Positions 18,013 through 60,627 of a stretch of 64,000 nucleotides of DNA are shown here, in pieces. Source of the DNA: a virus; IMG/VR virus record IMGVR_UViG_3300031918_000005, positions 62,001-126,000 of that record. The stretch is one strand, 5' to 3'. Under the pieces are notes generated by a model. The model saw nothing but the letters and a program-made list of their open reading frames with translations, made no database searches and was not told where the DNA came from. The translations under genes were made by a program, and so were the position numbers. Within the stretch, counting starts at the first letter, position 1; every line of letters starts with the position of its first letter.

Positions 18013-18389
18013 GGTTTTCTCTTGTTAAGTTGCTTAACTATAAATTCAGTAAATATATCTTGTACTTTCATTGCAGTTTCTTCATTCAAATTATAACCAC
18101 CAACACCAGTAAGTCTTCCCCAACCTCTTATAAGTAAAAACTTCTTATCGTTACAATAAACACATCCATTTTCATGTCTAAAAGTTAAATCTTGACTTTT
18201 AATTATTTTTTCACCATTAATTACTTCTAAGGCATTTTTTTGATTTTTATCCTTTTCTATAAGGAACTGAAAAACAAAATTTTCTTTAGAATCATATATT
18301 CTACCTGAAAACCAACCTTCTTCTGAAACATATCCATCTTTGAGTGGTAATTCATAAATATCTTTCCAGTCATTAATAACTTTTGTCAT
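18009..18389 (-). CDS. Small unassigned protein
   Basis: A 126-residue protein starting MTKVINDWKDIYELPLKDG. The ATG at 18389 is chosen because it lies eight bases after the upstream stop; the longer frame would overlap that gene. It contains a Cys pair around CVYCNDKKFLLIRGWG and a Gly-rich LTGVGGYNLNEE turn. The family is unknown to me. Confidence 0.65.
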   Translation of the reverse strand: MTKVINDWKDIYELPLKDGYVSEEGWFSGRIYDSKENFVFQFLIEKDKNQKNALEVINGEKIIKSQDLTFRHENGCVYCNDKKFLLIRGWGRLTGVGGYNLNEETAMKVQDIFTEFIVKQLNKRKP

Positions 18390-18397
18390 AATTGGTG

Positions 18398-18682
18398 TTA
18401 TTTTATTGGTGTGTTTTCTGTTGGTTCTATAAAATCTTCTCCCATAATAGACCAATCACATATTGCTCTAACATATTCTTTCGAAAACTTGTGATAACGA
18501 TTGTGTGCATCACACGATCTTTGACAATCTTCTCTTGATTCAAATGGTGAATATAGAGGACTTTCAATATATCCACCATCAATAACATTAACACCATACC
18601 ATAAACCACCGATATTAACTGGATATTTAACACAATAGCTTTTATTTCTTTCCACTAAAGGATAATTATTTGGATTTTTCAT
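18398..18682 (-). CDS. Small unassigned protein
   Basis: A 94-residue protein with start ATG at 18682, supported by the recurring AAAAAATAGAATTATG leader seen before other genes here. It has a PVNIGGLWYGVNVIDGGYIESP beta region, then a helix with ESREDCQRSCDAHNRYH in which two Cys and two His could bind a metal. No function is assigned. Confidence 0.65.
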   Translation of the reverse strand: MKNPNNYPLVERNKSYCVKYPVNIGGLWYGVNVIDGGYIESPLYSPFESREDCQRSCDAHNRYHKFSKEYVRAICDWSIMGEDFIEPTENTPIK

Positions 18683-18718
18683 AATTCTATTTTTTGATTT
18701 TGATTTTTTTGTTGTTTT

Positions 18719-18778
18719 AATACCCACGACTATATCAGAATACAAGGAAAATATATCATCTGTAGTCGGGGAAGTATT
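18719..18778. repeat. Dispersed 60-bp intergenic element, copy 2
   Basis: Second copy of the element at 7174-7233. Here the ends pair well: CCC-A-CGACTA on the left with TAGTCG-GGG on the right, so a closed stem of about nine pairs can form around the conserved core. It lies between the stop of the 19819 gene and the start of the 18682 gene. Confidence 0.6.
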
Positions 18779-18784
18779 TCTTAA

Positions 18785-19819
18785 TTATTTCGTACCATCT
18801 TCCATTGCCTCCATAAGCTTTTGAAGCTTTGAAAGATTATCACCTTCAAGACCGAAAGATTTCATATCGGGTCTACCTTGTTTTTCCATTCTTTTTCTTT
18901 CGGAATACTGCTCATTAGTTTCTTTAGGTTGACCAAAATTTTCAGTAAAATTATTGATTGCCGATTGTTTACCAACCTCAAATTTAAGAAGTCTTTCTCC
19001 ATCTTCCAAAAGATAATATTTTAAGGCATAAAAACCCGCAATTGATAACGTTTTATCAGAATTGAAAGATGAGAAACCAATTCTTTGTATTCTGTATTCT
19101 TCAGGCATTTCAAAGAAAGCCTTATTTCTTTCATCAACATCTTCTTGTGTAAGTTCTTGAAGATGTTCTTTAATTGTGAATGAAATGGGTGTAACTTCAA
19201 CAAGCTTTTTGGATAAAGGCATTATACCAGCTATAGGTTTACCAGTTATACAGCATATCATACCATCATCAAGTACTTTAAGCAAATGATTGAGTGTCAA
19301 CGGATTCCAATTTATTGCAATATGATAAAGAAATTTAAGACCTTTTTCAGTTTTTTCCATATTTTTGATAACATGGAAAGCGTAATTTACTTCTTCAGGT
19401 AATGGGTCACCAAATACAGATTGCTCTCTAGAATAAATCACCTTTATTTCTTCTTTTGGTAATTCTTGAGCTTTCTTTTTAACCACAAATTTTGGTTTCT
19501 CAAAATTTTTGATTTTATCTTTAACAAAAAAATTTGTTACGGCTTTATCAGAACCAATAGCTTTATCAACACCGACAACAACAAATCTTGGTTTTTTGGA
19601 TTTGTTAATGCTTGTAAGGCCTATTCTATCAACCACTTTAACAGATTTATTGTCAGGGTGTGATTTTATTTCTTCTTCTGTCATTGGAACGACTTCATAG
19701 CCAATATTACCATCAGGTTGTTTGGATATAAAATCTAAACATTCTTGTTGTGTTCCATCGAAACAATCTTGACCTTCTTCTTGTGTCATGGTCATGTCAA
19801 GTACTTTATAAGTTTTCAT
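18785..19819 (-). CDS. Unassigned 344-residue protein
   Basis: I do not recognise this protein. The N-terminal 60 residues form one acidic domain (MKTYKVLDMTMTQEEGQDCF). There is a Lys-rich linker around 80-120 and a larger domain from about 125 that includes GMICCITGKPIAGIMPLSKK and IQRIGFSSFNSDKTLSIAGF. The end is helical and charged. The ITGKPI element is not a proper P-loop. It probably works early, judged by its neighbours, which are accessory rather than virion genes. Confidence 0.65.
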   Translation of the reverse strand: MKTYKVLDMTMTQEEGQDCFDGTQQECLDFISKQPDGNIGYEVVPMTEEEIKSHPDNKSVKVVDRIGLTSINKSKKPRFVVVGVDKAIGSDKAVTNFFVKDKIKNFEKPKFVVKKKAQELPKEEIKVIYSREQSVFGDPLPEEVNYAFHVIKNMEKTEKGLKFLYHIAINWNPLTLNHLLKVLDDGMICCITGKPIAGIMPLSKKLVEVTPISFTIKEHLQELTQEDVDERNKAFFEMPEEYRIQRIGFSSFNSDKTLSIAGFYALKYYLLEDGERLLKFEVGKQSAINNFTENFGQPKETNEQYSERKRMEKQGRPDMKSFGLEGDNLSKLQKLMEAMEDGTK

Positions 19820-26768: not shown

Positions 26769-26780
26769 AAATACAAAATT

Positions 26781-26822
26781 TAATCTTTAATTATTTAATC
26801 TTTAATTATTTAATCTTTAATT
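26781..26822. repeat. Tandem 15-bp repeat overlapping the terminase-fragment end
   Basis: The unit TAATCTTTAATTATT occurs 2.8 times (26781-26795, 26796-26810, 26811-26822). On the minus strand it reads as repeated TAAATAATTAAAG, close to the late-promoter motif. It contains the stop codon and last residues of the terminase-intein ORF. Confidence 0.8.
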
Positions 26823-27279
26823 CCATATATCTCTTAAGTTTGAGTAGAAATAATAAGGCGGTATTCTTTTTGTAGTAAAATATATTTTCAAACAATTCTT
26901 TCATTGTTATATTATCACCATTAACTGTTATAATAGTTCCACCATCTAAACATTTTCCTGACTGTCGGCTTGATAGAAATATATTAAAGCGGTAATTTTC
27001 AAATTGTTTAAGTACTCTAGATTGGTATGGTCTAAGGATTATCTTCTCAATACCATTATCTGTCATACAAAATGCATAATTATTAGCAAAATAAAGACAC
27101 GATTTTTGTATTTTTGCTAATTCAATAATTTCCTCGTCTGTATATTGATAATGAAGAAAAGCTTTTCTTTTTCTCGTATCTTTTAAGAAAAAAGGGTTAT
27201 CTCTTGGTAAAAAACCAGTTTTGTTATAATCATCTATAATATTTTTTACCTTTTCTGAATCATATATATTACCTTCCAT
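26806..27279 (-). CDS. terL: Large terminase N-terminal fragment fused to a split N-intein
   Basis: A 157-residue fragment of the DNA-packaging ATPase. The start is ATG 27279; a TTG 28 codons upstream is also in frame. The terminase part shows YTDEEIIELAKIQKSCLYFA, then IILRPYQSRVLKQF and the P-loop start SSRQSGK, as in T4 gp17 (SRQLGKT). The expected Ser/Thr after GK is replaced by Cys at 26950-26952. The sequence then reads CLDGGTIITVNGDNITMKEL, which fits intein block A. A basic helical tail of about 25 residues follows, then a stop. This is a short atypical split N-intein, like the TerL split intein AceL that I recall. The ATPase active site can only form after trans-splicing to a C-intein/terminase partner, which is not in this window. 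Confidence 0.85.
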   Translation of the reverse strand: MEGNIYDSEKVKNIIDDYNKTGFLPRDNPFFLKDTRKRKAFLHYQYTDEEIIELAKIQKSCLYFANNYAFCMTDNGIEKIILRPYQSRVLKQFENYRFNIFLSSRQSGKCLDGGTIITVNGDNITMKELFENIFYYKKNTALLFLLKLKRYMELKIK

Positions 27280-27386: not shown

Positions 27387-28604
27387 TCACCAAAGAGAGT
27401 TGAATGTTATTAATGATGAAGGTATCTCTTTTAGACCTATGGCAACAAGTATTCTATTGATATACGACAGATAATTTGACATAAATTGTATATCATATGA
27501 TACTGGATATTTTTGTAAAAACTGTGGTGGTATAACTCCAATAGGGAATGCAAAAACATCAATTATGGGGCTTGTTGTATAATACCATTGTATTTTATCA
27601 CCAGATTTTATTATAGAATATTTTTGTTTTATTTCATCAGGTGCAAGCGATATTTCGTTATTGTATTGAGCAATCGCTCTGATGTGAATAGGAGAACCAG
27701 CAACGTATTTTATATTATTATCAGAGCATTCAAGTATATATTTACCAAGATTATTAACTCTTTGAGTACTTAATATATTAATTATATCTATATGTGTGAA
27801 TTCTTCTTTTATGTTCCTGATTTTATCAACAATAATATTATAATCTATAATATCTGTCTTAATTATACAGTCAATTATAATTTCCTTAAGTTTTTCACGA
27901 ATAAATTTAGGTACAGATGTTTGATTCATTTCAAGACCAATAGCCTTTACATTTTCATATCTTCCAAATGTTGTTCCATTTTCCCAAATAAGTTCCTTAA
28001 CATATCTTTTTTTAGATGATATCAAGAATTTACCTATAATTTGTTCAAATGTTAATTTAAGGCACGGCATACCCGATATTCTTTTTTGGAATCCACCATG
28101 TAAACTTATGAAATGAGACAACATATGCTCAAGTGCTGGATATAAGTCGATTTTGTTTAATTTCAGGACAAAATCTTCAATAGTACCTTTATAATCAGTA
28201 TGGCTAATTATCTTACCATAATTTACAAACACCGAATCAGTATCACCATAAATTACAATATCTTCAGTTATTGGAGTAACATATGTTATACCAAGTTGTT
28301 CATGAATATGTGGTATATTAGGAAATCTTTCCTTGAAATATTTATTAAACCAAAATTTGGTGTACTTTATAACGTATGCCGATTGAGTAGATATAGAAGA
28401 AGCTACATATTTGTCATAAAGTATAAATGAAGAAAACCCAAATACGCCATATATAGAATTGAGGATTTTCTTTAAAGATAAATCCTCGCTCTTTTTTGAA
28501 AATTGTAAATTTTGAAGTCTAGTTATTTCATCATTGATTTCTTGTTCAGTTACTTCTTGACCTTTTTCAAACTTACAGTATTTTAAATCCAAATCATATA
28601 TCAT
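27387..28604 (-). CDS. 43: Family B DNA polymerase, C-terminal fragment
   Basis: A 405-residue fragment carrying the second half of a T4 gp43-type polymerase. It has motif B (KKILNSIYGVFG, residues 45-56), motif C with the catalytic Asp residues (YGDTDS, 119-124) and the thumb-like KRYVKELIWENG and GLEMNQTSVPKFIREKLKE. The 3'-5' exonuclease domain and motif A (DxxSLYPS) are absent; the ORF begins about 45 residues before motif B with its own ATG. I see no intein block at its start. The missing half must be encoded elsewhere, as in T4-like phages with separate 43A and 43B genes. Its ATG lies one base after the methylase stop. Confidence 0.88.
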   Translation of the reverse strand: MIYDLDLKYCKFEKGQEVTEQEINDEITRLQNLQFSKKSEDLSLKKILNSIYGVFGFSSFILYDKYVASSISTQSAYVIKYTKFWFNKYFKERFPNIPHIHEQLGITYVTPITEDIVIYGDTDSVFVNYGKIISHTDYKGTIEDFVLKLNKIDLYPALEHMLSHFISLHGGFQKRISGMPCLKLTFEQIIGKFLISSKKRYVKELIWENGTTFGRYENVKAIGLEMNQTSVPKFIREKLKEIIIDCIIKTDIIDYNIIVDKIRNIKEEFTHIDIINILSTQRVNNLGKYILECSDNNIKYVAGSPIHIRAIAQYNNEISLAPDEIKQKYSIIKSGDKIQWYYTTSPIIDVFAFPIGVIPPQFLQKYPVSYDIQFMSNYLSYINRILVAIGLKEIPSSLITFNSLW

Positions 28605-38928: not shown

Positions 38929-39882
38929 TTATATTAAATTTAATTTATGATTTATTATTATTTTTATATATCTTTTTATAACATTTGGTTTTTTAGTCCA
39001 ATCCAAATTCCATATTGTCAATATGTCAATATTTCTTTCATTTTTATATTCGGAAATCTTCAGTTTATCATTTTCCCATACATCTTTTGCTAATTTCCCA
39101 TATTTTGACAAGTCATCGTATTTGAATTTTCTTGGGTCACAATGTATTCCAGTACCATTAAATTCAAACCCCAAATTCAAGTCCTCTAAAAATATATCAA
39201 TTTGTAATCTTTTATTATTAATTTTTGAAAAGTAATCATATTGAATTTTAATGTTTTTAAATTCCGTTTTTATAAATTCATAAATTGTTATTTGTGGCCT
39301 TGATTTGTTTGTATAATTGGTTGAATTCAATGGTATACAATTTGTACAAATATCAATATTGTTTTTTATTCTATAATAATATTGATTAAAACTATGGATT
39401 TTAAATTGTTCATTACACTTATTACACAATAATAAGTGTTCATTATTGCCAACATATTTTATATAATCAAAATCCTTTTCTAAACAACCGTCTTTTTCAA
39501 GTCTTAATAAAAATTTATTTGGTTTTTCTTTGTTTGGCTTTTCTTTATACCAATCTTTTTTACATCTACTATTTTTATTACCAGTTGATTTTAATGATTT
39601 TAATTTAATATTACATGATTTACTACATGATTTTAGGTATTTTTGTTCCTTGAAAGAATATATTGCTATACCACCACATATTTCACATTTTTGTAATTCA
39701 AACACATCATTTTTAATATGCCAAATTCTTTGATAACCATAAATTTTGATATAGTGCTCATCAAGGAAAGAAGTCAAATAAATAATCTCTTTCCAAAATT
39801 TATTATTTTGTAGCATCACAGATTTTGATATATTGTATCGATTCCCATACCACCAATCAATCAAATAATCATATTTCCCCAT
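38929..39882 (-). CDS. Free-standing homing endonuclease, EDxHD/Vsr-like
   Basis: A 317-residue protein. ATG 39882 (MGKYDYLIDWW) is preferred over an upstream in-frame ATG that lies before the terminator. Residues 35-85 are shared with the 43345 protein (LTSFLDEHYIK, QRIWHIKNDVFELQKCEICG), and CEICG with SCSKSCN make a probable zinc finger. A second Cys pair (CNKC, then CTNC) follows. Near residues 225-300, RLQIDIFLEDLNLGFEFNGTG and a later NDKLKISEYKNERNIDILTI resemble Vsr-like nucleases of the EDxHD homing family. It is inserted between uvsX and the 39981 gene after a terminator. Confidence 0.8.
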   Translation of the reverse strand: MGKYDYLIDWWYGNRYNISKSVMLQNNKFWKEIIYLTSFLDEHYIKIYGYQRIWHIKNDVFELQKCEICGGIAIYSFKEQKYLKSCSKSCNIKLKSLKSTGNKNSRCKKDWYKEKPNKEKPNKFLLRLEKDGCLEKDFDYIKYVGNNEHLLLCNKCNEQFKIHSFNQYYYRIKNNIDICTNCIPLNSTNYTNKSRPQITIYEFIKTEFKNIKIQYDYFSKINNKRLQIDIFLEDLNLGFEFNGTGIHCDPRKFKYDDLSKYGKLAKDVWENDKLKISEYKNERNIDILTIWNLDWTKKPNVIKRYIKIIINHKLNLI

Positions 39883-39920
39883 ATCAGTTTTTAATTTATT
39901 TAATAAAATAATCAAATACA

Positions 39921-39959
39921 TTTGGTGCTTGAGAAAGTGTATTATTCTCAAGCACCAAA
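39921..39959. terminator. Perfect 15-bp hairpin terminator
   Basis: TTTGGTGCTTGAGAA pairs with TTCTCAAGCACCAAA around a 9-base loop, 22 bases after the stop of the 41678 gene and 39 bases before the endonuclease start. Confidence 0.8.
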
Positions 39960-43344: not shown

Positions 43345-44322
43345 ATGAATTATTACAATTTATTACAATGGTATAATAAAAATAAAAATTGTTATTTTAT
43401 TAAAAAAGGTGCTAAAGATTCAGAAGAATATACAAAAATTTTAAGTTTAACTTCTTTCCTTAATGAATATTATGATACAATTTCTCTATCTCAAAGAATG
43501 TGGCATATAGAAAATGATATATTTGAAATTCAAAAATGTGAAATATGTGGAAATATTGTAAAATTCGAAAGACACATAAAATATTATAAAACATGTTGTA
43601 AAACATGCAATATAAAATACAGAAATTCTGATGAATTAAAACAAAAAACAAAAAACACTAATATTGAAAGATACGGTGTTGAATGGAGTCAACAATCTGT
43701 TATTATTAAACAAAAAATGATTGATAACAACATTAAAAAATATGGAGTTGTATCCACTTCTAAATTACAAAATGTTAAAAACAAAATGTTAAAAACAAAT
43801 TTAGAAAAATATAGTGGAACTGGATTTGCAAGTGATAAAAACAGAGAAAAACAGAGAAAAACAATGATTGAAAGATATGGAGCTGAAAATCCAAGTTTTA
43901 TCACATCAATATTACAAAGAGGTCATTTAACCAAAATCAAAAACAATTCTTATCAAAAATCAAAGGAAGAAGATGAATTTTATCAAGATTTAGTATTATT
44001 GTTTGGAGAACATAATGTAATTAGACAATATCAAGATGAAAGATATTATAACAAAATCACAAACAAAAAATTTGTTTGTGATTTTTATGTGAAAAGTTTA
44101 GATTTATTTATAGAATATGATGGTCATTGGTCACATAAACCACAGTATTTAAAAGAGAAAGAAAGAAATGAATTTATTAAAAAACTTAATAATAAAAACA
44201 CAGAATATTCACAAAGTATGTTGAAAGCATATTATAGAGATATTGAAAAAAGAAATATTTCAAAAATCAACAATTTAAACATTGAATTTGTACCAAGTAA
44301 CAAATTATTAAGGCACATTTAA
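43345..44322 (+). CDS. Free-standing homing endonuclease with zinc finger and Vsr-like domain
   Basis: A 325-residue protein on the opposite strand to its neighbours. Residues 28-75 match the N-terminal domain of the 39882 endonuclease (LTSFLNEYYD, QRMWHIENDIFEIQKCEICG, then a CCKTCN pair). Residues 95-185 contain four short DNA-binding-like repeats of the pattern NxxKYGVxxxSK (IERYGVEWSQQS, IKKYGVVSTSK, LEKYSGTGFAS, IERYGAENPS). The C-terminus has KKFVCDFYVKSLDLFIEYDG and HWSHKPQ, a Vsr/EDxHD-like nuclease core. Base composition is even richer in A than its surroundings, suggesting recent transfer. Its stop overlaps the stop of the convergent 44873 gene. Confidence 0.83.
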   Translation: MNYYNLLQWYNKNKNCYFIKKGAKDSEEYTKILSLTSFLNEYYDTISLSQRMWHIENDIFEIQKCEICGNIVKFERHIKYYKTCCKTCNIKYRNSDELKQKTKNTNIERYGVEWSQQSVIIKQKMIDNNIKKYGVVSTSKLQNVKNKMLKTNLEKYSGTGFASDKNREKQRKTMIERYGAENPSFITSILQRGHLTKIKNNSYQKSKEEDEFYQDLVLLFGEHNVIRQYQDERYYNKITNKKFVCDFYVKSLDLFIEYDGHWSHKPQYLKEKERNEFIKKLNNKNTEYSQSMLKAYYRDIEKRNISKINNLNIEFVPSNKLLRHI

Positions 44323-44876: not shown

Positions 44877-45551
44877 TCAACCTTTAGTTTTTTTATTTAT
44901 TTTATAAATTGTTTTGTGTAACCAATATTCAAGTTTTGTTAGTAATGATTTCGATTCCATATTTTTATAATACAATTCAAAAATAGATATCTTCTCAAAT
45001 TCCGATATTTGTGTGTTGAGTATGTCAACATCTGTATCATATGTTACACAATTATGAACCAACAATCCATCAGCAATAAACATATGAAGCTTATCATCAA
45101 TTGTTATGTCAAATACTTTATGTTTACCATTCAATAATTCAACTGATTCAATAATATCAAATTTACCTTCGGCATCGGTAAGACAATATTCATTCATTAC
45201 ACAATCTTCCAAATGGCTTTTCAATCGTTTTGTTGAAAAGTATGTATTTTTAACAACGACTGTATTTCTTACAATACAGCAAGGAAATATATGGTCTTCA
45301 GTAGCTTGTATTATTTTACCAGTTTTAGTGGTTATTTTACACAATTCTTTTTTACCATTATAATGTACATGAGTTATTTTTGAAATTCTTGTTTTATCTA
45401 TATTAACAAAGTAACCAAAGGGTTCTATTTTATAAGACCTTTGGTTACTATATATTATAACATCTTCAATCAAAGATATCAAATATATGATAAGCTTAGG
45501 GGAAAAATTTTTACACGATGTTTTTTGTAACTTCGACATAATCTTCATCAT
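44877..45551 (-). CDS. Stand-alone intein polypeptide: C-intein joined directly to an N-intein
   Basis: A 224-residue ORF with little or no host-protein sequence. Residues 38-90 look like a split C-intein start (YKIEPFGYFVNIDKT) with block B, IQATEDHIFP (T84, H87). Residues 144-160 fit block F (HKVFDITIDDKLHMFIA), and 161-168 block G, DGLLVHNC (H166, N167, C168). C168 then begins VTYDTDVDILNTQ and KISIFELYYKN, which matches block A of an N-intein. A basic helical tail follows, like the tail on the terminase N-intein. Residues 15-38 (SPKLIIYLISLIEDV) are a hydrophobic acidic stretch that may pair with such tails. The start is uncertain: ATGs at 45551, 45548 and 45539 overlap the upstream gene. 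Confidence 0.78.
   Translation of the reverse strand: MMKIMSKLQKTSCKNFSPKLIIYLISLIEDVIIYSNQRSYKIEPFGYFVNIDKTRISKITHVHYNGKKELCKITTKTGKIIQATEDHIFPCCIVRNTVVVKNTYFSTKRLKSHLEDCVMNEYCLTDAEGKFDIIESVELLNGKHKVFDITIDDKLHMFIADGLLVHNCVTYDTDVDILNTQISEFEKISIFELYYKNMESKSLLTKLEYWLHKTIYKINKKTKG
45411..45448. other. 11-bp hairpin inside the intein ORF
   Basis: GTAACCAAAGG (45411-45421) pairs with CCTTTGGTTAC (45438-45448). It lies about 63 bases after the stop of the DUF4494-like gene, so it could be that gene's terminator within the 5' part of the intein ORF. Confidence 0.5.
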
Positions 45552-59274: not shown

Positions 59275-60627
59275 ATGAGCAAGTTAGACAACATTTCTCC
59301 GATAGATAGTAGATATAACAAACAACACATCATAAGAAATTTATGCTCTTATAAAAACCAACTACAGTCAAAGGTGACAGTTGAACTTAGTTGGTTTTTC
59401 CATTTATGTAAAGAATATGGATTTGAAATAAAAGATGGTGAATTTATTGAATTAACAAATCGTTCAGTTAATGAAATTAATCATGTTATTGAAATTGAAA
59501 AATCAACTAAACATGATATAAAAGCCATTGAATATTATATTCGTGAAATCGTATTTACATCTGAATTCTTTAATAGACACACAGAAGAAGAAAAGGTAAA
59601 AATTTTAAATCTTATACATTTTGGTCTTACAAGCCAAGATATAGTTAGTTTAGCAACAAATTTATTGTTTTATAAAATATCTCAAGTTTTCATATGTGGT
59701 ATAAATGATGTTATATCACATATGAAAACGATATTTTCCGAAAACAATGTTTTGATGGTTGGTTATACTCATGGTCAACCAGCAATACCAATTAATTCCA
59801 GTCTTATATATCATAATTATCGTGAAAGACTGGAAGCATTAATTACAAAACTTGAAAATATACAACCGAGAGCAAAATTTGGTGGAGCTATTGGTGATAA
59901 TTCTTCTTTAAAGCTTGTTGGTGTTATTGATATTGAGGAAATTATGGATTCATTCATTAATGAATATGATTATTCCAAAAATTTTATCCGCTCAAAAAAC
60001 ACAACACAAATAGATAATTGGGTATATCTTGTTGATTTATTGAAAGAATATCTTCAAATATCTTCAATATTTATTGATTTATGTCGTGATATTTGGCATT
60101 ATTGTTCAATAAATTATTTGGTACAAAAGAAAGATGATAAACAAATAGGTTCATCAACTATGGTTCAAAAAACCAATCCAATAAATTTTGAAAATTGTGA
60201 AGGTATAATGGAAAAATTGGAATCTGATTTTTCATTTTATATTAAGAAATTTTCAAAATCTAGATTACAAAGAGATTTATCCGATTCTGTTGTAATCAGA
60301 ATGGTTTTTGAAAGTTTCGCAATGTTCAATACTGGTATGATTTCATTTTCTAGAGGATTATCCAATATTGAATTTAACACCGAAAAAATAACTTCTGAAT
60401 TGAACAATCATTATGAAATATCAACAGAATATATTCAATTATTTTTAAAATATAACGGTGTTGATATGGCTTACGAGCTTGTTAAAGAAAAACTTGAAAT
60501 TATACCTTTGACAAATCGTGAAAGTTATGTTAAATTTATTGATTCTCTTATTGATGAGAGAATCATAACTGAAGAAATGTATTATGAAATGATGGAATTT
60601 AATTTATCACATTATAAAAACTCATGA
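59275..60627 (+). CDS. purB: Adenylosuccinate lyase (PurB-like)
   Basis: A 450-residue lyase of the fumarase/ASL superfamily, matching the E. coli PurB type in order: NISPIDSRYN, STKHDIKAIEYYIRE, HFGLTSQDIVSLATN, YTHGQPAIP (catalytic His), KFGGAIGDNSS and the flexible signature loop IGSSTMVQKTNPINFENCEG (catalytic Ser; usual form GSSTMPHKVNP). It removes fumarate from succinylated purine intermediates. Encoded with a PurZ-like synthetase 3 kb away, it could convert the succino-diamino-dAMP product to diamino-dAMP. The alternative is ordinary AMP synthesis. Catalytic residues look intact. It follows the envelope genes by six bases. Confidence 0.92.
   Translation: MSKLDNISPIDSRYNKQHIIRNLCSYKNQLQSKVTVELSWFFHLCKEYGFEIKDGEFIELTNRSVNEINHVIEIEKSTKHDIKAIEYYIREIVFTSEFFNRHTEEEKVKILNLIHFGLTSQDIVSLATNLLFYKISQVFICGINDVISHMKTIFSENNVLMVGYTHGQPAIPINSSLIYHNYRERLEALITKLENIQPRAKFGGAIGDNSSLKLVGVIDIEEIMDSFINEYDYSKNFIRSKNTTQIDNWVYLVDLLKEYLQISSIFIDLCRDIWHYCSINYLVQKKDDKQIGSSTMVQKTNPINFENCEGIMEKLESDFSFYIKKFSKSRLQRDLSDSVVIRMVFESFAMFNTGMISFSRGLSNIEFNTEKITSELNNHYEISTEYIQLFLKYNGVDMAYELVKEKLEIIPLTNRESYVKFIDSLIDERIITEEMYYEMMEFNLSHYKNS

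Follow-up and report, generated by a model that had tools for sequence, protein, structure and literature searches.

The large terminase subunit is encoded in pieces

The DNA analysed here (the window) is a stretch of 64,000 nucleotides, bases 62001-126000 of the IMG/VR virus record IMGVR_UViG_3300031918_000005. The record as a whole is a metagenomic contig of 167,485 bp and unknown completeness, and its remainder was read piecewise (L005 and L006 are two such pieces). The large terminase subunit (TerL) of this phage (G000) is distributed among separate genes, three of which carry parts of split inteins: a gene for the N-terminal part of TerL, a middle gene that encodes intein parts only, and a gene for the remaining TerL ATPase. 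Coordinates refer to the window unless the record or another sequence is named, and splice junctions are marked by a slash.

The open reading frame (ORF) at positions 27279-26806 on the minus strand starts with an ATG at 27279 and encodes 157 amino acids (aa). Similarity to large terminase subunits spans residues 37-110 (phrog_5989, E=1e-14; phrog_36964, E=7e-9), and an alignment of 110 aa with the intact TerL of Flavobacterium phage MaF61 (MaF61 aa 6-114) shows 38% identity. A match of the same ORF to an ncbifam methyltransferase (0.016) was taken as chance. The TerL N-extein (aa 1-109; 26953..27279, minus strand) ends with SSRQSGK at the Walker A Lys. An intein N-half, IntN_A (26806..26952, minus strand; 48 aa, tail included), follows directly. 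It opens with Cys110, continues through a stretch resembling block A into a helical tail and ends at the stop codon, such that the sequence reads ...FLSSRQSGK/CLDGGTIITVNGDNITMKELFENIFYYKKNTALLFLLKLKRYMELKIK. A profile made from the copies of IntN_A in this phage and in a diverged relative located it at a single place in the record. The TerL of MaF61 is intact and carries no intein, and thus provides the empty site; since it reads LASRQIGK/SIVTSIFLAW at the equivalent position, the break can be placed exactly between the Lys and the Ser of the P-loop. Around the stop codon of this gene (26780-26830), a ATTAAAGATTAAATA-like sequence occurs in three direct copies.

The C-terminal part of TerL is encoded beyond the window, at record positions 129227-130303 on the plus strand. 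Its gene begins with an intein C-half, IntC_B, which ends in ...FTFDVTIGSGEMSYFSNDILSHN; after it come Ser and what remains of the TerL ATPase. The C-extein starts with SIISGIFIMWYLLTNYDKG, the junction being ...DILSHN/SIISGIFIMWYLL..., and matches phrog_2 (6.6e-17) and T4 gp17 structures; its Walker B motif is GILYCDEF. The nuclease domain occupies yet another gene (record 151754-152593, L006:12754-13593, plus strand), which aligns with MaF61 aa 373-618 at 35% identity. The nuclease gene is intein-free, no intein was found at the ATPase/nuclease border, and the end position of the C-terminal part is identical in this phage and in its relative. Judged by its motifs, the TerL is of the T4 (gp17) type, with Walker A (SRQSGK/S), Walker B (GILYCDEF), the coupling motif TSTARG and a separate nuclease domain spread over the genes. 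Within Walker A, the insertion follows the invariant Lys and precedes the Ser/Thr position, as seen from SRQSGK/C... and ...SHN/SIISG at its two ends and from SRQIGK/SIVTS in MaF61.

A first-pass annotation, made from the window alone, had claimed that TerL is broken between the P-loop Lys and the expected Ser/Thr by an ultra-short split N-intein, and had predicted a C-intein elsewhere in the genome, followed by TerL sequence that starts with Ser, Thr or Cys and has a Walker B motif. The sequence, the terminase matches and the MaF61 alignment bear out the former, and the gene at record positions 129227-130303 is what the latter foresaw. That annotation also held that an intact terL elsewhere, or an assembly error, would overturn its reading. 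No intact terL is present elsewhere in the 167,485-bp record, so the break stands. The N-terminal part, the middle ORF and the C-terminal part are each 100% identical in independent IMG/VR assemblies, and the same pieces recur in the relative, which together contradict an assembly error. Trans-splicing of TerL at the P-loop is thus well supported by the sequences.

A middle gene composed of intein parts only

The middle gene (45551-44877, minus strand) encodes a complete C-intein ending in VHN, followed directly by the Cys of a second short N-intein and then by a stop codon. The protein lacks exteins altogether, both at its ends and between its intein halves. The C-half, IntC_A (45051..45551, minus strand), comprises a head helix, block B (ATEDH), block F (VFDITIDDKLHMFIADG) and block G (LLVHN), ends with ...KHKVFDITIDDKLHMFIADGLLVHN, and matches PF14890 (1.8e-8) and TIGR01443 (2.2e-7). 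The N-half, IntN_B (44877..45050, minus strand; 57 aa, tail included), has the sequence CVTYDTDVDILNTQISEFEKISIFELYYKNMESKSLLTKLEYWLHKTIYKINKKTKG; it begins with Cys168 immediately after Asn167 of IntC_A and contains block A (CVTYDTDV), the motif IFELYY and a helical tail before the stop, and was recognized by its conservation in the relative and by a hidden Markov model (HMM). An AlphaFold2 model of the middle protein shows a HINT fold (pLDDT 77.7, pTM 0.71), and mini-inteins in the PDB match it at ~1e-6.

Profile scans of the whole record found exactly two intein N-halves, two intein C-halves, one N-terminal and one C-terminal part of TerL. Similarly, TIGR01443 and PF14890 detect exactly two intein C-termini in this phage and two in its relative, in the middle ORF and in the C-terminal TerL gene. 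The anatomy is that of atypical split inteins with short N-halves, whose C-halves reside on other genes and whose catalytic residues are present and conserved; on these grounds, two split inteins with trans-splicing activity are predicted. A DNA pattern scan for the junction HN/CVT.DT found it in these two phages only.

In both phages the middle ORF overlaps its neighbours on either side, a DUF4494 gene (upstream) and the following gene (downstream), as would be expected of a real gene. Genes resembling homing endonucleases (phrog_3339) are located at 43345-44322 (plus strand) and 38929-39951 (minus strand). The former has no counterpart at the equivalent place in the relative, and it was rejected as a component of the system owing to its absence beside the middle gene there.

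Conservation in a diverged relative

The relative, G001 (3300031521_000018, 125 kb), carries the same three pieces, with identities of 69% for the N-terminal TerL gene, 49% for the middle ORF and 83% for the C-terminal TerL gene; its nuclease gene is likewise separate (G001 18066-18809, minus strand). Its middle ORF retains VHN/CVT.DT, the block B His, the block F Asp and the block G His-Asn, and its IntN_B reads HN/CVTADT...IPIFELYY. The ratios of nonsynonymous to synonymous substitution (dN/dS, Nei-Gojobori), which are rough because synonymous sites are near saturation, were ~0.38 for the middle ORF (0.45 for its C-intein part and 0.21 for its N-intein part), ~0.24 for IntN_A, 0.10 for IntC_B and 0.07-0.09 for the exteins. 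Identities between the two phages were 56% (N-half) and 43% (C-half) for intein A, and 65% and 74%, respectively, for intein B. The two pairs would thus evolve at matching ranks, A fast and B slow, which was counted in favour of pairing A with A and B with B.

Occurrence of the insertion site and relation to known inteins

Scans of viral contigs yielded 23 distinct TerL sequences in which RQxGK is immediately followed by Cys (this phage and G001 included), versus 59 with Thr and seven with Ser. Among those for which both parts were available, at least 15 are split and two (L138 and L142) are contiguous. The split P-loop TerLs usually consist of an N-terminal part with a tail of 42-69 aa after the Lys, an ORF of ~365 aa and a C-terminal part with a head helix, ~1.1 kb apart. 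TerL is split at the same P-loop site in LR756500 and LR756501, while Ackermannviridae (e.g., Klebsiella phage Magnus) carry a contiguous intein there, as do mycobacteriophages, whose TerL1-a inteins interrupt the P-loop between Lys and Thr (PMC5050341). The TerL1-a and Ackermannviridae inteins share the insertion point of the present system, between the P-loop Lys and Ser/Thr; unlike it, they are single, contiguous inteins within one polypeptide. The core of the first-pass annotation, the P-loop break by a split N-intein, was hence right, but its opinion that such short N-inteins are rare was not: short-N split TerLs at this site are common in IMG/VR, and the contiguous version is published. 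It also overlooked the third gene at 44877-45551.

The same annotation had held that AceL-TerL occupies a different TerL site. AceL-TerL and GOS-TerL have Cys at the +1 position (PMC11766414), which is unfit for a P-loop Lys/Ser or Lys/Thr junction, and this indirectly supports a different site for both. IntC_B has Ser at +1 and so differs from this group; only IntC_A has Cys at +1, and that Cys is Cys1 of IntN_B. AceL-TerL, GOS-TerL and the consensus intein Cat resemble the present system in their TerL host, in a short N-intein (reported as 25-37 aa) and in having blocks B, F and G in the C-half, and one of the structures that best match the P-loop split family is that of Cat (6dsl). In contrast, they have two pieces and Cys at +1, where this phage has the Lys/Ser junction of the P-loop and a third, all-intein protein. 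The ultra-short split intein VidaL, with a reported N-half of 16 aa (PMC13014065), is also a two-piece system and, unlike this phage, has no abutting pair. No other structure matched the P-loop TerL split family as well as that of VidaL (6vgv; 8e-10, 27% identity).

Genes fractured with split inteins, with a homing endonuclease between the parts, were reportedly described by Dassa in 2009. Many relatives share this arrangement, having the ~365-aa ORF between the two parts of TerL. In this phage, by contrast, the parts lie ~18 to 41 kb apart on both strands, three pieces would be spliced, with a middle exon of zero length, and the fractured-gene layout seen in the relatives, with an endonuclease gene between the TerL parts, does not apply. 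In a model of the contiguous relative L142, a long helix (residues 59-90; pLDDT 68.7) joins the tail of the N-half to the head of the C-half, which suggests that the tail and head helices bring the split halves together.

Assignment of the intein halves

Scored with profiles of the P-loop TerL split family from which both phages had been excluded, IntN_B reached 25 bits versus 6-14 for IntN_A, and IntC_B 69 versus 26 for IntC_A. Alignment z-scores to TerL inteins ranked the halves in the same order (4-5 for IntN_B versus 2-3 for IntN_A; 16 for IntC_B versus 9-10 for IntC_A). IntC_A is at least as similar to the DnaB intein of Planktothrix phage PaV-LD as to TerL inteins. The motif PIFELYY is common to the IntN_B of G001 and the N-intein in the TerL of LR756500. 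When IntN_B and IntC_B were joined as one query, the alignment ran precisely from one end to the other of the TerL intein annotated in Klebsiella phage Magnus. In a tree of C-halves, IntC_B fell within the TerL family but had a long branch (3.4), and IntC_A sat on a very long one (3.2), which lends weak support to the assignment of A and B. Profiles of the head and tail helices gave scores too low for use.

A proposed three-piece relay and its alternatives

The best reading of these features, and one that we consider fairly probable, is a relay of three pieces, in which two abutting, naturally split inteins of class-1 type with ultra-short N-halves act through an adaptor that is made solely of intein parts and contributes an exon of zero length. 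The first gene would supply the TerL N-extein, ending at the P-loop Lys and fused to IntN_A; the middle gene, the adaptor, in which the Asn of IntC_A directly precedes Cys1 of IntN_B; and the third, IntC_B, Ser and the remaining ATPase. IntN_A and IntC_A would pair and move the N-terminal part of TerL onto Cys168, the first residue of intein B, which would at the same time serve intein A as its +1 nucleophile. The resulting intermediate, TerL-N-IntN_B, would carry SRQSGKCVTYDT and would then splice with IntC_B on the C-terminal part, giving ...SRQSGK-SIISG..., a complete P-loop with the junction SRQSGKSIISGIF. The nuclease domain would remain a fourth, separate and intein-free gene product. 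With nearly the same degree of confidence, the adaptor is proposed to share a single Asn-Cys bond between the two inteins and to hand one part of TerL to the other, leaving no residue of its own. Since intein A would end and intein B begin at this one bond, the two steps could in principle occur in either order with the same product. The relay is also the only assignment of the intein halves in which all four would splice productively.

The similarities described above suggest that intein B is the original occupant of the P-loop site in TerL and that intein A came later. The arrangement is likely to have originated when intein A inserted before Cys1 of the resident intein B and the parts subsequently became separated. 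Such insertions can happen, since tape-measure ORFs of two other viruses, L222 (IMGVR 3300020171_000088) and L210 (IMGVR 3300009285_008404), each contain two contiguous inteins that abut without a spacer (...MIVHN/CIAWDTRIYD... and ...IIVHN/CLAFDTKIYD..., respectively), the first of which has an HNH-like endonuclease region.

Several observations weigh against the relay. The middle gene is known from two lineages only, profile, protein and DNA-pattern scans of the viral contigs having produced no more, and IntC_B has no block F His, although one family member (L203) shows the same EMSYY-like replacement. In leave-one-out comparisons, members of the family scored 7-82 (N-halves) and 164-219 (C-halves), and the A and B halves fall well below most of them; both inteins are therefore diverged, B being the nearer, and the family assignment of the N-halves is moderate because these halves are short. 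Moreover, IntN_A joined to IntC_B aligns over its full length with contiguous TerL inteins of Campylobacter phages (E=6e-4), so that sequence by itself does not decide the pairing, and in a control with joined queries the cross combinations scored as well as the matched ones. The full-length alignment of IntN_A with IntC_B counts in favour of direct splicing in two pieces, whereby IntN_A would pair with IntC_B in one step, to an identical product, and the middle gene, no longer required, would act as a spare, decoy or regulator. Cross-pairing does occur within such families, as the N-halves of GOS-TerL and AceL-TerL are reported to be interchangeable (PMC11766414). Direct splicing is the main rival, but we regard it as unlikely: IntN_A is a poorer fit than IntN_B to the family of TerL N-inteins, and no role would be left for a middle gene whose two intein ends both keep their catalytic residues and which is retained in two diverged phages.

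The AlphaFold2 model, in which IntC_A and IntN_B form one ordered unit, also speaks against the relay, since a closed pairing in cis within the middle protein would then be possible. The middle gene could accordingly be a circularly permuted, self-paired remnant, self-cleaving or inert, with TerL made by an undetected route or by the outer halves; the permuted order without an extein has no productive cis reaction. This explanation appears improbable, given that the catalytic residues and the exact HN/C junction are conserved despite near-saturated synonymous sites and that the gene sits in a tight row, overlapping its neighbours in both phages. Least probable by far is an assembly artefact or a pseudogene alongside an intact terL; a metagenomic contig of this kind leaves some room for it, yet the independent assemblies are identical, the diverged relative has the same pieces, the record contains no other terL, and the low dN/dS of the exteins likewise argues against it.

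The relay thus remains the preferred reading. The pieces, their motifs and conservation, the lack of an intact terL and the direct contact of IntC_A and IntN_B are seen in the sequences, whereas splicing itself, the pairing of A with A and B with B, and the need for the middle gene are inferred from them. No earlier report of nested, tandem or three-piece natural split inteins was found in the searched open literature, although an earlier report cannot be excluded.

Neighbouring genes

The family B DNA polymerase of this phage is also encoded by two genes (27387-28604, minus strand, and L005:11677-13158, plus strand). Its C-terminal half lies ~110 bp upstream of the N-terminal TerL gene and its N-terminal half ~1.4 kb downstream of the C-terminal TerL gene, with the same neighbours in G001, as if one rearrangement had broken both the polymerase and the TerL genes. 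No intein was found in the split DNA polymerase of this phage. In the huge phage LR756500 (L043, 248001-251000), the DNA polymerase contains an intein C-half ending in DILVHN/SCYLAF, beside an endonuclease-like ORF.

By sequence, the record also encodes a GroEL-like chaperonin (L005:13523-15121), an adenylosuccinate synthetase (L005:5453-6853), an adenylosuccinate lyase-like protein (59275-60627) and a TnsA-like endonuclease N-terminal domain (PF08722; 22555-23058). MaF61 carries a similar gene set, which suggests that the host belongs to the Bacteroidota.

Implications

The arrangement of the three genes is conserved and, within the literature searched, has no earlier description; the relay is its best reading. 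If the relay operates as proposed, an essential phage motor would rely on two consecutive trans-splicing events at one point, mediated by a protein that contains no extein. Inteins could then stack at a single site and subsequently separate into unlinked genes, a constructive-neutral route by which parts are added without new function. The two co-occurring split inteins with short N-halves, which may be orthogonal, would also be useful for sequential protein ligation.
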